NCBI RefSeq assembly: GCF_000422285.1
Contig: NZ_AULM01000012.1
Span: 1 to 64,000 of the forward strand
Reading direction: 5' to 3'
DNA from: Desulfatiglans anilini DSM 4660
GTDB taxonomy: Bacteria > Desulfobacterota > DSM-4660 > Desulfatiglandales > Desulfatiglandaceae
DNA: 64,000 nucleotides
The translations under genes were made by a program, and so were the position numbers. The notes beneath the pieces were generated by a model. That model made no database searches. It was not told where the DNA came from and was given only the letters and a program-made list of their open reading frames with translations. This document shows, piece by piece, positions 5,168 to 63,307 of this stretch. Positions within the stretch are counted from its first letter, which is position 1. Each line of letters begins with the position of its first letter.

Positions 5168-5324
5168 CGGAAATGATTCCCCGGTACCAACCAATTTCCA
5201 ATCCGGAATTGAGGGTTTTTTGCCCATATCAAGGAAATCAGACCGTTGCGAGCAAGCGGCCTCCAGGTCGCCGAACAAGCAAACGGGCAGATTGACGCCG
5301 AGATGAGCAAAAATGCATTTCCGG
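5168..5324 (+). repeat. Dispersed palindromic repeat, copy 2 with left extension
   Basis: The core runs from 5203 to 5324 (122 bp), bounded by CCGGAATTG and CATTTCCGG, with a damaged central hairpin (AAGCGGCCTCCAGGTCGCC). Upstream, 5168-5202 is the associated left extension (GGAAATGATTCCCCGGTA followed by CCAATTTCCAAT). It lies upstream of the DASS transporter gene. Confidence 0.85.
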
Positions 5325-12186: not shown

Positions 12187-12508
12187 CCGGAAACGGTCTT
12201 TTGTGCCAATCCCGGTGTCGATCTGCCCGTTTGCTTTTGCGGGGAGATGCACTACAGGTTGCCTCCCCGCAAAAGCTTGCTTTCCTCGATGCTGGAAAAA
12301 CCGGGACCTGCCGCGAAGCGCCCGGACTTGGCACTCCCATGGTGTGAAGAGACCGCGAACCGGCCCGCAGGAGCGGGACTGGGCACGCGAAGCGTGTGAA
12401 GATACCGGGACCCGCCCCGCAGAGATGGGACTGAGCACGCGAAGCGTGTGAAGAGAAATTCCTCATTCCCCGATTGGAGACGGCTTTATACCGGAAAATC
12501 CATTCCGA
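12187..12508 (-). repeat. Composite dispersed repeat, copy 3, with three tandem REP-like units
   Basis: A diverged core (12187-12304) is followed by three tandem units of about 50 bp (12301-12350, 12351-12402, 12403-12454). Each unit ends in a short palindrome such as CACGCGAAGCGTGTGAAGA. The element closes with the extension motif (CCGATTGGAGACGGC to CCGGAAAATCCATTCC). It fills almost the whole gap between the cNMP-binding protein gene and the first diaphorase gene. Confidence 0.8.
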
Positions 12509-16917: not shown

Positions 16918-17049
16918 CAGGTTTCCATCCGGAAATGAGGATATTTCTTCACACGCTACGCGTGCTCAGTCCCACCCCTGCGGGATGGGTCCCAGTTTCT
17001 TCACACGCTGCGCGTGCTCAGTCATGCCCTTGCGGACTGGCTCCCGCAC
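16918..17049 (+). repeat. Dispersed repeat, copy 4: left end plus two REP-like units
   Basis: The left end (GTTTCCATCCGGAAATGAGG) leads straight into two REP-like units, each with a CACGC-N3-GCGTG hairpin and a CCCACCCCTGCGGGATGGG-type hairpin. The second unit overlaps the 3' end of recD and supplies its last codons. Confidence 0.85.
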
Positions 17050-42419: not shown

Positions 42420-42515
42420 TTGGAGCAACGGAAAATTCCGGCTGCTCGGAAACCCGCTATTTAGACGAAAACCGCCTTTCCGGCCGATACCGGCCTCTGA
42501 CTGCATGTTTCCGCC
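42420..42515 (-). repeat. Decayed copy of the dispersed repeat
   Basis: The stretch around CGCCTTTCCGGCCGATACC and the following ACTGCATGTTTCCGC aligns with the right arm of the core repeat, but has many changes. It lies 130 bases from the well-preserved copy at 42638. Confidence 0.5.
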
Positions 42516-42637: not shown

Positions 42638-42849
42638 GAGTTTCCATCCGGAAATGGTCTTTTTGGCCAATCTCGGCGTCAATCTGCACGTTTGCTTGTG
42701 CGGCGACCTACAGGTCGCCTCCGCGCAAACGCTTGATCTCCTTGATATTGGCCAAAAATCCTCATTTCCGGATTGGAAACTCGTTTGTAATGGAAATGGT
42801 CTTGTACCGGAAATGAGGATTTTTCCTTTACGCGCTTCGCGCGCTCAGC
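42638..42849 (-). repeat. Dispersed palindromic repeat, copy 6, complete with extension
   Basis: The core (42648-42771, 124 bp) is one of the best preserved. CCGGAAATGG starts it, GGCGACCTACAGGTCGCC is the centre and CTCATTTCCGG ends it. After it come the extension (GATTGGAAACTCG to TACCGGAAATGAGGATTTTT) and the start of a REP-like unit (CGCGCTTCGCGCGCTCAGC). It ends 20 bases before the CcsB gene, so it lies in that gene's leader. Confidence 0.9.
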
Positions 42850-45285: not shown

Positions 45286-45310
45286 GAGGCTGGTACTCCC
45301 CGTTTACGGT

Positions 45311-45475
45311 TCGGAAATGATACTTCCCCGCAAAGCCCGATTTCCGATTCGGAAATGAGGATTTTTTGCCCGTATCAAGGAAACCAAGCGTTTGCGCGGA
45401 GGCGACCTCTAGGTCGCCGCACAAGCAAACGTGCAGGTTGACGCGGAGATGGGCAAAAAAGACCGTTTCCGACAG
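45311..45475 (+). repeat. Dispersed palindromic repeat, copy 7
   Basis: The core (45349-45472, 124 bp) has the perfect centre GGCGACCTCTAGGTCGCC, and the left extension starts at 45311 (CGGAAATGATACTTCCCCG). It lies between the convergent ccsA and smsB genes and touches the smsB stop codon region, so it could serve as a bidirectional 3' hairpin. Confidence 0.9.
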
Positions 45476-45479
45476 GGAA

Positions 45480-46400
45480 CTATTTTAGGAAGCTCTGGAT
45501 GATCTTATTCACAGCCTCGTCGTAAGTCAGGCCGAGGCTCATCAGCTTCATGAGCTGGTCGTTGGCGATCTTGCCGATGGAAGCCTCGTGGGTCATTTCG
45601 GCTTCCGGATGCCTCGCCTTCAAGGACGGGATGGTCTCGTTGGTCCCGTTGTCCATGATGATCGCATCGCACTCGATATGCCCGAAGCATTTGGCCTGCG
45701 CATCCAGCGTCGCGTAGAAATCCTGCCGCGAATCCCCTTTGATGACGGATCTGGAGATCATGTTGGCCTTGCTGTCTTCTCCGGCGAGCACGATCTCGTT
45801 CCGGGAGACGGCTGACTGCCGCCCGTCCGTCAGAACCCGTTCAGTGATGAGAAGCGAACTCCCCGGCCCGAGCTGCGCCTCGTTCCGCCTGACCGCCTCG
45901 TCGACGCCGCCGATCTGGCTCAATTCCATCTCGGCATAGGCGCCTTCCTCCATAAAAACGCGGGTCGTCGGGTTGAGGCTGCGCTTGCCCTTTCCTTCGC
46001 CGAGAGCCACGTGCTTTTCGACGTATTTCATGCGCGCATGCTTGCCGATCCGGAATTCGTGGATCCCTTCGTGCCCCTCTGGCGAGGATCCGCCGCAGTG
46101 GATCCCGCAGCCGGCGACGATGGTGACATCGGAGTCTTCTCCGACGATGAACGTATTGTACACCACGTCGTGGAGACCGGCCTGGCTGACGATGACGGGG
46201 ATATGAACCGACTCGTCCCGGGTTCCCGGCGCGATGGTGATGACGATACCGTTTCCGGCCTCGTTCGTCTCGATCAAGATGTTGGCGGACACCTCGCGGC
46301 CCAGCAGTTCCCCGTTCTTGCGGATGTTGTAGGCGCCTTTAGGAATGCCCTCGAGATCGGCCACCTCCTTCAACAGTTCTTTATCGATAGCACTTAGCAT
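45480..46400 (-). CDS. SufBD-type Fe-S assembly scaffold (SmsB-like)
   Basis: This 306-residue protein belongs to the SufB/SufD family and is shorter than SufB or SufD of the full SUF system. It contains VAGCGIHCGGSSPEGHEGIH (C98, C102), MKYVEKHVALG and the C-terminal PEAEMTHEASIGKIANDQLM, which is the most conserved stretch of the family. AAGGAGAG precedes the ATG at 46400, and the gene overlaps the ATPase gene by 20 bases. A lone SufC-SufBD pair matches the minimal SMS-type system described in anaerobes. No cysteine desulfurase or SufU gene is adjacent. Confidence 0.88.
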   Translation of the reverse strand: MLSAIDKELLKEVADLEGIPKGAYNIRKNGELLGREVSANILIETNEAGNGIVITIAPGTRDESVHIPVIVSQAGLHDVVYNTFIVGEDSDVTIVAGCGIHCGGSSPEGHEGIHEFRIGKHARMKYVEKHVALGEGKGKRSLNPTTRVFMEEGAYAEMELSQIGGVDEAVRRNEAQLGPGSSLLITERVLTDGRQSAVSRNEIVLAGEDSKANMISRSVIKGDSRQDFYATLDAQAKCFGHIECDAIIMDNGTNETIPSLKARHPEAEMTHEASIGKIANDQLMKLMSLGLTYDEAVNKIIQSFLK

Positions 46401-47142: not shown

Positions 47143-47389
47143 GTCGCAACTCTCCTTTTCGTTTTCGCGCGGAATCCTGCCGGATGCCAACGCATCGACT
47201 CCCCTGGCCGGACACAGCTAAAAGCCCGAGAATTTATCTTTCTAACCTGGGAGTGAATAAATTTCAAGCCTCAAATCCAACTTTCCTCCCACCCAGCCGG
47301 AACCCTTCCCTCGTTCACAGCCTTCTAATTTCCGGGCCGGGGCTCATTTTCTTTGGCTAAGAGCCGCATGGAGTATAAGATGGTGTCCC

Positions 47390-47555
47390 GCTGGAAATGC
47401 GGAATTTTCTTCACACCCTTCGGGTGCTCAGTCCCACCCCCTGCGGGGGCGGGTCCCGGTTTCTTCACACCCTGCGCGGAGACAGCCCCCGGGCCGCCGC
47501 ACCGGCGAACGTCAGATGGACGCCGAGACGGGCAGGCAAAAGCATTTCCAGATGG
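47390..47555 (+). repeat. Dispersed repeat, copy 8, with REP-like unit in the left arm
   Basis: The left end (CTGGAAATGCGGAATTTTC) runs into a REP-like unit (CACACCCTTCGGGTGCTCAG, then CCCACCCCCTGCGGGGGCGGG) and a second partial one. The right arm follows (GACGCCGAGACGGGC to GCATTTCCAGATGGAA). It lies upstream of the tRNA nucleotidyltransferase gene, and an open frame through it falsely lengthens that gene. Confidence 0.8.
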
Positions 47556-47683
47556 AATCAAGATGGTTTTCGACAGGACCGATCATGCCGCCGACAGATC
47601 ATCCATACCCCTTCTGCTGCGCTTCGCCCGGACGTTCTTCCGATGGTTCGAAAAACCGAGCAGCGAACCCAGGCTCCGCAGCC

Positions 47684-55621: not shown

Positions 55622-55677
55622 GAGATTTCATCAGAGCATGATCTGCTTGGCCAATCTCTGCGCCAACATACAATCGA
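55622..55677 (-). repeat. Decayed fragment of the dispersed repeat
   Basis: GAGATTTCATCAGAGCATG and CTTGGCCAATCTCTGCGCC align with the outer part of the core in reverse orientation, with many changes and without the central hairpin. Confidence 0.5.
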
Positions 55678-55870
55678 CTCTCGCGTGGACGTCCCCTAAA
55701 AAAACACGGCCGGAACAGCGGATCTCCTTCCTCGAAGAAGATCCGCGCTCTGATCTCATTCCTTTTCGGTCTGCAAAAAGCATTTCGCGAAATCTTTTTC
55801 CCCGCCACACCCGGGCGCTTAACGTATGTCGATCCAACTCATCCGACAAGGATTTCTTCTCCTGCCTCGT

Positions 55871-55935
55871 TCCCATCCGGAAATGATTTTCCGGTAGAAC
55901 CCAGTTTCCAATCCGGAGATGAGGATTTCGGGCCC
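55871..55935 (+). repeat. Dispersed repeat, left extension only
   Basis: CCATCCGGAAATGATTTTCC, CGGTAGAACCCAGTTTCC and AATCCGGAGATGAGGATTTC form the left extension and the first bases of the core. The rest is absent, and the element ends 10 bases before the flavodoxin stop codon. Confidence 0.75.
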
Positions 55936-55945
55936 ATTTCTTCGA

Positions 55946-56386
55946 TCAGCCCGCCGAGAGCTTCTGCCCGACCTCGCGGCCGTAGTCCTGAGCCATCTTG
56001 GTCCCGCCGCCAAGGCTTGCGGACTTGAGGCGCAGCGCTGCGCCAACCATGTTCATTTTGAAGATATTCTTCATGGTGTCGAAGATGCGGTCCGGGGCCT
56101 CACCGCTCCAACCGAAGGCGCCGAACGACGCTCCGGCCTTGCCCGCCAGCCCGGCCTTTTCAGCAAGGAAGAGCAGCGTTTTCATGCCCTGCATCATCTC
56201 CCCATGGTAGGTGGCCGAACCGAATACGTAGGCATCATACCCCCCCAGATCGCCTTCCTTCTTGATCTGGGTCACATTGACCACATTCGCCTCGTGCCCG
56301 GAAAAACGAATTCCTTCTGCGATCAGTTCCGCGATGTTTTTGGTCTCGTTGGTTCTGGTGGCATAAACGACCAAGGCCTTTCCCAT
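55946..56386 (-). CDS. Flavodoxin-like protein
   Basis: This 146-residue protein is a flavodoxin-fold FMN carrier: the N-terminal phosphate loop is VVYATRTNETKNIAELIAEG, in place of the common GSTTGNT, and YDAYVFGSATYHGEMMQGM and ASFGAFGWSGEAPD are the other FMN loops. GGAGG lies 9 bases before the ATG. It opens the oxygen-defence island and could deliver electrons to rubrerythrin- or flavodiiron-type acceptors. The YHGEMM loop resembles the flavodoxin-like domain of flavodiiron proteins. Confidence 0.85.
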   Translation of the reverse strand: MGKALVVYATRTNETKNIAELIAEGIRFSGHEANVVNVTQIKKEGDLGGYDAYVFGSATYHGEMMQGMKTLLFLAEKAGLAGKAGASFGAFGWSGEAPDRIFDTMKNIFKMNMVGAALRLKSASLGGGTKMAQDYGREVGQKLSAG

Positions 56387-56752: not shown

Positions 56753-56885
56753 CCATTTCCCGGAAGGGCCCGGTTTCTTCGCGTGTTGCGGGTGCTCACT
56801 CCCGCCCCCGCGAGGCGGCGGGTCCCGACAGGGCCGCTGCCAAAGAAACCAGGCGCTTACGCGCTGCGCATCTGCAGGAGGCCCT
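56753..56885 (+). repeat. Decayed composite repeat with REP-like unit
   Basis: CATTTCCCGGAAGGGCCCGG leads into a REP-like unit (CGTGTTGCGGGTGCTCAC, then CCCGCCCCCGCGAGGCGGCG). A weak trace of the core arm follows (CAGGCGCTTACGCGCTGCGC). It separates the zinc-ribbon gene from the rubredoxin-like gene. Confidence 0.6.
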
Positions 56886-62337: not shown

Positions 62338-62391
62338 ATGAACGGGAAAAACCCGATGGGCCTCAGATTCACCGAAGAGGCCCTCAACATC
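62338..62391 (+). pseudogene. Relic of a second crotonase-family gene
   Basis: These 54 bases match 63140-63193 inside the crotonase gene at about 48 of 54 positions, in the same orientation. They encode MNGKNPMGLRFTEEALNI, compared with MNGKNPMGLRLTKEAINV in the intact gene. The frame then runs into the repeat copy. It is best read as a leftover of a duplicated crotonase gene trapped between two repeat copies. Confidence 0.75.
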
Positions 62392-62515
62392 CCGGAAATG
62401 AGGATTTTTGGCCAAGATCAAGGAAATCAAGCGCTTGCGCGGAGGCGACCTCCAGGTCGCCGCACAAGCAAACGCGCAGATTGACGCCGAGATTGGCCAA
62501 AAAGACCATTTCCGG
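62392..62515 (+). repeat. Dispersed palindromic repeat, complete reference copy
   Basis: This is a complete 124-bp core: CCGGAAATGAGGATTTTTGG at the left end, GGCGACCTCCAGGTCGCC in the centre (62446-62463) and AAAAAGACCATTTCCGG at the right end. The two arms are inverted versions of each other with mismatches. It lies 18 bases before the crotonase start codon. Confidence 0.92.
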
Positions 62516-62533
62516 AGGAAGGTGGAAGGAGCC

Positions 62534-63307
62534 ATGGACACGATCGAGTACCAACTGCTCGAACCGGGGATCGGGCTGCTGTCGCTGAACCGCCCCCGAA
62601 AGTACAACGCCGTCAATTTCCGGATGATGGAGGAGCTCGAGGCGTTCTGGAAGGAGCGTCTCTATGACCTGGACATCCACGTCATCATCCTCCGTGGGAA
62701 CGGAGAGAGGGGATTCTGCGCGGGCCTCGACATGAAGGAGATCAGGAATGAGGCCCCCGGCATGAACACGGACCAGTTCTACCGTTTTCAGGCCCGTCTG
62801 GCGCGCCTCAACCTGGCGATGCGCCAGGCGCCCCAACCTATCGTCGCCATGGTGCATGGGGCCGCAGTCGGGTTGGGGTTCAGCTTCGCGCTGGCATCGG
62901 ATATCCGGCTGATCAGCCCCGATGCCCGGTTTTCAGCGGCCTACATCAATATCGGACTCGGCGGCGCCGACATGGCTTGCAGCTACCTCCTCCCGCGGCT
63001 GATCGGCGGGGGGCGCGCCTACGAATACATGCTGACAGGCAATTTTATGACGGCGGATGAGGCGATGGCGCTCGGGCTGATCAGTCGCATCGTCGAAAAA
63101 GAGGCCCTGATGGACACGGCCCTCGAACTCGCCCGAACCATGAACGGGAAGAACCCGATGGGCCTCAGACTCACCAAGGAGGCCATCAACGTCAATATGG
63201 ACACTGGAGGACTGGAGCAGGCGTTGCACATGGAGGATCGCAACCAAACCCTGCTCCTCGCGAGGAGCCTCCTTGACAAAAAAGGCAAATCCAGCCGCTA
63301 CTTCTGA
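62534..63307 (+). CDS. Enoyl-CoA hydratase/isomerase (crotonase) family protein
   Basis: This 257-residue protein is a crotonase-fold enzyme acting on acyl-CoA. The oxyanion-hole segments are FCAGLDMKEI and HGAAVGLGFSFALASDIRLI, and the active-site loop is INIGLGGADMACSYLLPRLIG. The first catalytic glutamate position of enoyl-CoA hydratase appears replaced in the GLGFSFALASD segment, so the reaction may be an isomerisation or another crotonase reaction. The ATG at 62534 follows GGAAGGA; the frame upstream is the repeat. A relic of a related gene lies 200 bases upstream. Confidence 0.87.
   Translation: MDTIEYQLLEPGIGLLSLNRPRKYNAVNFRMMEELEAFWKERLYDLDIHVIILRGNGERGFCAGLDMKEIRNEAPGMNTDQFYRFQARLARLNLAMRQAPQPIVAMVHGAAVGLGFSFALASDIRLISPDARFSAAYINIGLGGADMACSYLLPRLIGGGRAYEYMLTGNFMTADEAMALGLISRIVEKEALMDTALELARTMNGKNPMGLRLTKEAINVNMDTGGLEQALHMEDRNQTLLLARSLLDKKGKSSRYF

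Follow-up and report, generated by a model that had tools for sequence, protein, structure and literature searches.

The window analysed here, a whole stretch of 64,000 nucleotides from Desulfatiglans anilini DSM 4660 (contig NZ_AULM01000012.1), carries a palindromic repeat between its genes, and the copy at positions 62392 to 62515 raises the question of what this repeat is and by what means it was dispersed. The original prediction, made from the letters of the window, described a family of 122-124 bp palindromes and left open whether it is a non-autonomous mobile palindrome or a conserved RNA hairpin with a use at the ends of genes.

Copies in the window and the extent of the repeat

The copies identified in the window were as follows, with bit scores from the covariance model.

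62392-62515, + strand: palindrome copy; covariance-model match 62356-62523; transposon left end lost; no terminal inverted repeat (TIR) outside the palindrome
42640-42814, - strand: near-complete transposon copy, 171.7 bits; left end decayed
45303-45480, + strand: complete-length, diverged transposon copy, 148.5 bits
5157-5332, + strand: complete-length, decayed copy, 110.4 bits; TIRs GTGTCCATC and GGATGGAAGC readable
1-93, + strand: copy interrupted by the window edge, 3' half present, 84.5 bits
30652-30821, - strand: partial decayed copy, 37.3 bits
12196-12302, - strand: partial decayed copy, 36.7 bits
62245-62283, + strand: fragment of the 3' end of the core
55869-55947, + strand: left-end fragment (CATCCGGAAATGATTTTCCGGTAGAACCCAGTTTCCAATCCGG), weak, 19.9 bits
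16920-17030, + strand: module-bearing copy, the left end followed by inner modules of about 52 nt
47382-47560, + strand: module-bearing copy, decayed, its 3' end readable

All four full copies that had been predicted, starting at 62392, 5203, 42648 and 45349, were present and occurred in both orientations. Three of them folded with z scores of -6.6 to -8.8 relative to shuffled sequences, and the decayed copy at 5203 gave -3.0. The predicted partial copies at 1-86, 12187, 30650 and 62245 were recovered, as was, weakly, that at 55871, while those at 42420-42515 and 55622-55677 were not supported by the model. Two further stretches that had been listed as partial copies, 47390-47555 and 56753-56885, were found to consist mainly of a different inner module of about 52 nt (CTTCACACGC..GCGGGTCCCGG) that belongs to longer copies. 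In the genus of D. anilini one or two such modules may be inserted beside the core; the same modules as at 16920-17030 lie between the left end and the core in L062-L076, and the copy at 12196-12302 also bears them, its inner modules and left end following up to 12507.

Comparison of flanks showed that 122-124 bp is not the unit, as the true repeat extends about 45 bp further left and about 8 bp further right. The palindrome forms the 3' three quarters of a non-autonomous transposon (MITE) of about 176 bp, in which a 6-bp repeat is followed by the left end GTrTCCATCC, about 20 bp, the palindrome, the right end GGATGGAAAC and the same 6-bp repeat. The right TIR of the copy at 42640-42814 (GTTTCCATCC) starts at 42640. 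For the copy at 62392-62515, the flanks match those of an orthologous copy (L045) in G001, a complete genome from the genus of D. anilini, and in both genomes the surroundings are the remains of a duplicated 3' end of an enoyl-CoA hydratase gene. This 3' end is found at 62338-62391 and again at 63140-63193, the first being a remnant ahead of the intact gene.

A genome-wide search for further copies found many, the D. anilini genome containing about 190 cores (198 matches to the core pattern versus 12 for a reversed-pattern control). About 41 near-full copies share 91-100% identity, with 40 candidate places scored. The covariance model matched 103 times in 0.8 Mb sampled from G001; about 24 of these matches read the same palindrome from the opposite strand, and the density was about 79 places in 0.8 Mb, or about 100 per Mb. 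Several contigs of the D. anilini assembly (C22, C24, C36, C48, C8, C11, C7 and C21) start or end within repeat copies, and the assembly is therefore probably fragmented at them.

The core reading frame is open in some copies. A coding role was considered and rejected, since copies from other genera contain in-frame stops (e.g., in the GTACTATAGTAC centre) and substitutions, judged by eye, track the pairing.

Target-site duplications and the ISNCY-family partner

Of 103 MITE copies drawn from many genera, most measured 176-177 bp, and lengths lay mostly within 174-178 bp. Its constant ends are short, imperfect TIRs, and in many lineages the left end belongs to a small hairpin (GTGTCCATCCGGAAACTCCGGATGGACAC). 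The flanking 6-bp direct repeats were identical in 37 of the 103 copies and differed by at most one mismatch in 53, compared to a mean of 1.5 and a maximum of 6 identical pairs in 1000 shuffles. The signal was seen at length 6 only, with the consensus TARYTA, as befits a target-site duplication of fixed length; a clean duplication is gone in about half of the copies.

To find the mover, 0.8 Mb of G001 were scanned for both ends at a spacing of 0.5-4 kb, bounded by a direct repeat. One good candidate insertion sequence (IS) was obtained, 1693 bp long, with TIRs GTTTCCATCCGGAAA and TAAATA at both sides. Its 455-aa ORF is assigned to the ISNCY-family transposases (NCBIfam NF033593, E=1.7e-131), scoring 438.9 bits against a curated cut-off of 325, and contains the Pfam domains DDE_Tnp_1 and DUF772. 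Two more copies of the IS are present in G001. A 66%-identical IS was observed in another genus (G016), with TAATTA at both sides and the GTGTCCATCC-type end of that lineage, and an autonomous element with the ends of the MITE and the same kind of duplication is thus found in two genera. At the left end, the similarity between MITE and IS stops after about 16 bp. ISs of the ISDol1 subgroup of ISNCY have their own type of ends and a 6-7 bp duplication. This subgroup is named in the digIS paper. The partner carries a transposase that passes the family cut-off, whereas the 176-bp element has no transposase gene. Because the ends and the duplications are shared, the ISNCY transposase is probably the enzyme that moves the 176-bp element in trans.

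Within the D. anilini genome only a 24-residue relic of the transposase was found, and the gene may be absent through an assembly gap. A scan for TIR pairs around transposase loci, confined to the best hits of a PF01609 search, returned nothing, and no ISNCY relatives were detected in viral contigs.

The terminal repeats, the 6-bp duplications and the IS that shares the ends of the MITE support the first of the two predicted alternatives, the non-autonomous mobile palindrome. On the strength of these comparisons, the window repeats are very probably copies, many of them truncated, of a MITE of about 176 bp that carries the core inside it and would be moved in trans by an ISNCY transposase.

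Bare cores at stop codons and the conserved fold

The repeat was detected by DNA search in 17 of 41 relatives and by the covariance model in 59 of a sample of 297 genomes of the phylum; one Geobacter-like family was positive in 27 of 48. The titles of the matching records were mainly Desulfobacterales, Desulfuromonadales and Syntrophobacterales, plus others. Two outlier matches came from bins, one labelled Chloroflexi and the other Alphaproteobacteria, which may be misassigned.

In several Geobacter-like genomes the core of about 120 nt (118-124 nt) also occurs without the transposon ends, and the position of these bare cores was compared to that of stop codons. A stop was scored where it lay on the opposite strand, closed at least 100 open codons and was -4 to +3 nt from the right end of the core. 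In two genomes (G327 and G152) such a stop was present at the right end of 38/42 bare copies versus 5/42 at the other end, and four further genomes, three from genera outside the first test, gave 21/30 versus 2/30. The pooled counts were 59/72 and 7/72, and 5% of random intergenic positions in the same loci satisfied the definition. No such effect was seen for the transposon-borne copies (22 versus 14 of 103), which have no consistent orientation or gene-end bias. The predicted use of a hairpin at gene ends therefore does not apply to the transposon-borne copies and applies to the bare form at stop codons, with the better-folding strand antisense.

The bare cores keep to a fixed side of the upstream gene and lie mostly between tandem genes. 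Nine of 10 adjoining open frames tested matched Pfam families, including ornithine carbamoyltransferase, argininosuccinate synthase, glutamate dehydrogenase and DNA polymerase III alpha, and in G327 bare cores adjoin argF, argB and argG. In an arginine/lysine biosynthesis region of this genome (G327:C1:1056369-1067411), six bare cores follow successive genes on one strand.

No consistent target duplication was found at the bare copies. At six loci (L331, L335, L351, L365, L369 and L370), joining the flanks minus the core restores a stop codon, the junction being T|RR. The argB end, for example, reads AAG TGA AAGGTGC in G347; in G346 the core separates the T of this stop codon from its GA. Among the species of the G327 genus, orthologous gene ends hold a core in some cases and in others are empty or contain unrelated sequence, and the bare copies therefore turn over.

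Ordinary bifunctional transcription terminators, or palindromes arising by chance, would also place hairpins close to gene ends. The listed copies have no T-tract behind the hairpin, and chance is ruled out by the high identity and number of the dispersed copies and by the target duplications, as judged on the window copies; this explanation is hardly credible.

Conservation of the fold was assessed on two sets. Compensatory changes were observed in 22 of 47 pairs when the MITE palindrome was aligned across genera, an alignment in which part of the 5' arm is fixed by the search pattern, and in 19 of 31 pairs of the bare cores. The latter is the cleaner covariation test, since the bare cores were found by the model. 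Internal-loop bases beyond the search pattern (GATTGACGCnGAGATTG and GCCGCACAAG) are nearly invariant. The consensus of the + strand folds at -55.6 kcal/mol versus -27.6 kcal/mol for the opposite strand, and paired cells contained G-T rather than A-C in 71 versus 20 cases in one set and 32 versus 6 in the other. The model strand folds better in 42/42 bare copies with RNA energies and in 41/42 with DNA energies. From the G-T excess and the strand-biased energies it was deduced that the fold of one strand is conserved, and this strand may be either RNA or single-stranded DNA. In all 42 bare copies the better-folding strand (RNA energies) is antisense to the adjoining gene.

No family among the curated covariance models of Rfam matched the element, and the TPP hit in that search was due to a riboswitch surrounding one copy. 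Bare cores lie within a variable arm of a TPP riboswitch at L304 (G327:C1:1791518-1791637) and L311 (G119), and the riboswitch with its core insert still scores 34.5 bits. At L036:1767-1866, beside an element in G011, there is a sub-threshold match to the mraW RNA motif (29.1 bits, cut-off 50). The orthologous bare cores L303 and L312, from two species of one genus, have unlike stems at the centre (GTACTGGAAGTAC against GTAGCAGCGCTAC), which looks like a swap of the loop stem as a unit. Some cores contain smaller hairpins (L078, L081, L142, L085, L135, L383, L356, L359, L366 and L367), and these recur at a small number of insertion points, in an internal or the terminal loop, which suggests repeats nested in repeats.

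Origin of the core and earlier records

The original prediction had named a REP-associated tyrosine (Y1) transposase as a possible mover, in which case the repeats would be REP-type palindromes. Many intergenic hairpins with a strand-specific fold are consistent with this, Y1 transposases are present in G000, G001 and G249, and some bare cores supply TAG stops as the termini of GTAG REPs often do for flanking ORFs (PMC3733652). The TIR-bearing form, however, has 6-bp duplications and an ISNCY-family partner of the DDE type, and the REP route is disfavoured in G327, where there are 77 core hits and no Y1 match. GTAG REPs with their RAYT (Y1) transposases are 20-40 nt long and bear the GTAG tag, whereas the element is 120-176 nt long and its core has no constant tag, neither a GTAG nor a GTGG head. 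A Y1 mover was thus deemed very improbable.

Alternatively, the core could be an RNA element of benefit to the host, a 3'-UTR or intra-operon hairpin, with its placement at stops due to selection and its capture by the transposon incidental. This would account for the compensatory evolution, the invariant internal-loop bases and the constant side with respect to the upstream gene, and Geobacter copies were earlier termed predicted short RNA elements (PMC2700814). It is more difficult to reconcile with the antisense polarity of the best-folding strand and with the gain and loss of copies among species of one genus, where unrelated sequence may occupy the same place; we consider it rather doubtful.

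The placement could also result from movement. Integron attC sites are imperfect palindromes that lie directly after a stop codon and recombine as the folded bottom strand. The bare core might similarly move as a folded single DNA strand aimed at stop codons, by attC- or IS200-like chemistry and a putative enzyme. The strand-specific fold with DNA energies, the one-sided placement within -4 to +3 nt of the stop, the six loci with restored stops and the lack of a consistent duplication all agree with such movement. The bare cores nevertheless differ from attC in that the RYYYAAC/GTTRRRY boxes are not conserved, the ends vary (GAAACG, GGAACG, GGAATG and GGAGCG) and the copies are dispersed. Single-strand movement is put forward as a tentative possibility.

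The two forms behave differently, in that transposon-borne copies are flanked by duplications and show no gene-end preference whereas bare copies lack a consistent duplication and lie with a fixed side at a stop codon. This difference is most simply read as a core that spreads by its own route and was then captured. Most likely, the core was a mobile hairpin first and was captured by an ISNCY transposon later, although we infer both the direction of capture and any function of the hairpin. Under this mechanism the core, mobile in its own right, would have been enclosed between ISNCY ends and then amplified by the ISNCY transposase. The full proposal, in which a core of about 120 nt is an autonomous mobile hairpin with stop codons as its specific insertion sites (at several loci at T|RR) and a single orientation, moves as a folded single strand, leaves no duplication, and was captured and spread by the ISNCY transposons of the phylum, is offered with reserve.

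Some earlier described repeats are comparable. One Geobacter-like genome, which we take to be that of Geobacter uraniireducens Rf4, carries 176-bp copies with TAGCTA duplications, and the Chunjie MITE of that species is on this account probably related to the 176-bp element. According to a review, Chunjie (Chen et al. 2008) is non-coding, 178-235 bp long, with TIRs and direct repeats, and occurs in about 38 full and 57 partial copies at intergenic and operon positions (PMC10969869). Compared by description only, the two share the phylum and are both non-coding MITEs with TIRs and direct repeats; a transposase family, a phylum-wide core and a stop-anchored bare form are not among the features reported for Chunjie in that review (PMC10969869).

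For Geobacter metallireducens, "24 predicted short RNA elements" were listed near Arg/Lys genes (Aklujkar et al. 2009, PMC2700814). Their central palindrome GRCGTAGCGCTGCTACGCC is the commonest bare-core centre (GGCGTAGCGCTGCTACGCC), and both they and the bare cores of G327 are intergenic and beside Arg/Lys genes; the main text and figure titles of that paper contain neither stop-codon anchoring nor a transposon-borne form (PMC2700814). The ERIC repeat of enterobacteria differs from the present element in sequence. Its target duplication is TA, unlike the 6 bp here, and we know of no stop-codon anchoring for it. It is likewise described as an imperfect palindromic, MITE-like intergenic repeat of about 127 bp that occurs in many genera (PMC10969869).

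The open-access literature yielded no earlier account that ties the repeat to ISNCY, traces its core across the phylum or places it at stop codons, and these three points are considered new; the hairpin centre was already on record in the 2009 Geobacter list (PMC2700814). An unexplained intergenic repeat becomes a transposon with a named probable mover, the mobility of which is directly testable, and a hairpin hitherto recorded only in old Geobacter supplementary lists is among the commonest structured repeats of the whole phylum. Targeting, if that is what the anchoring reflects, would give a small mobile element a new means of settling in dense operons without harm. Should selection be responsible instead, electricity-producing and sulfate-reducing bacteria would possess in the bare cores a large class of 3'-end elements that has gone unrecognised.
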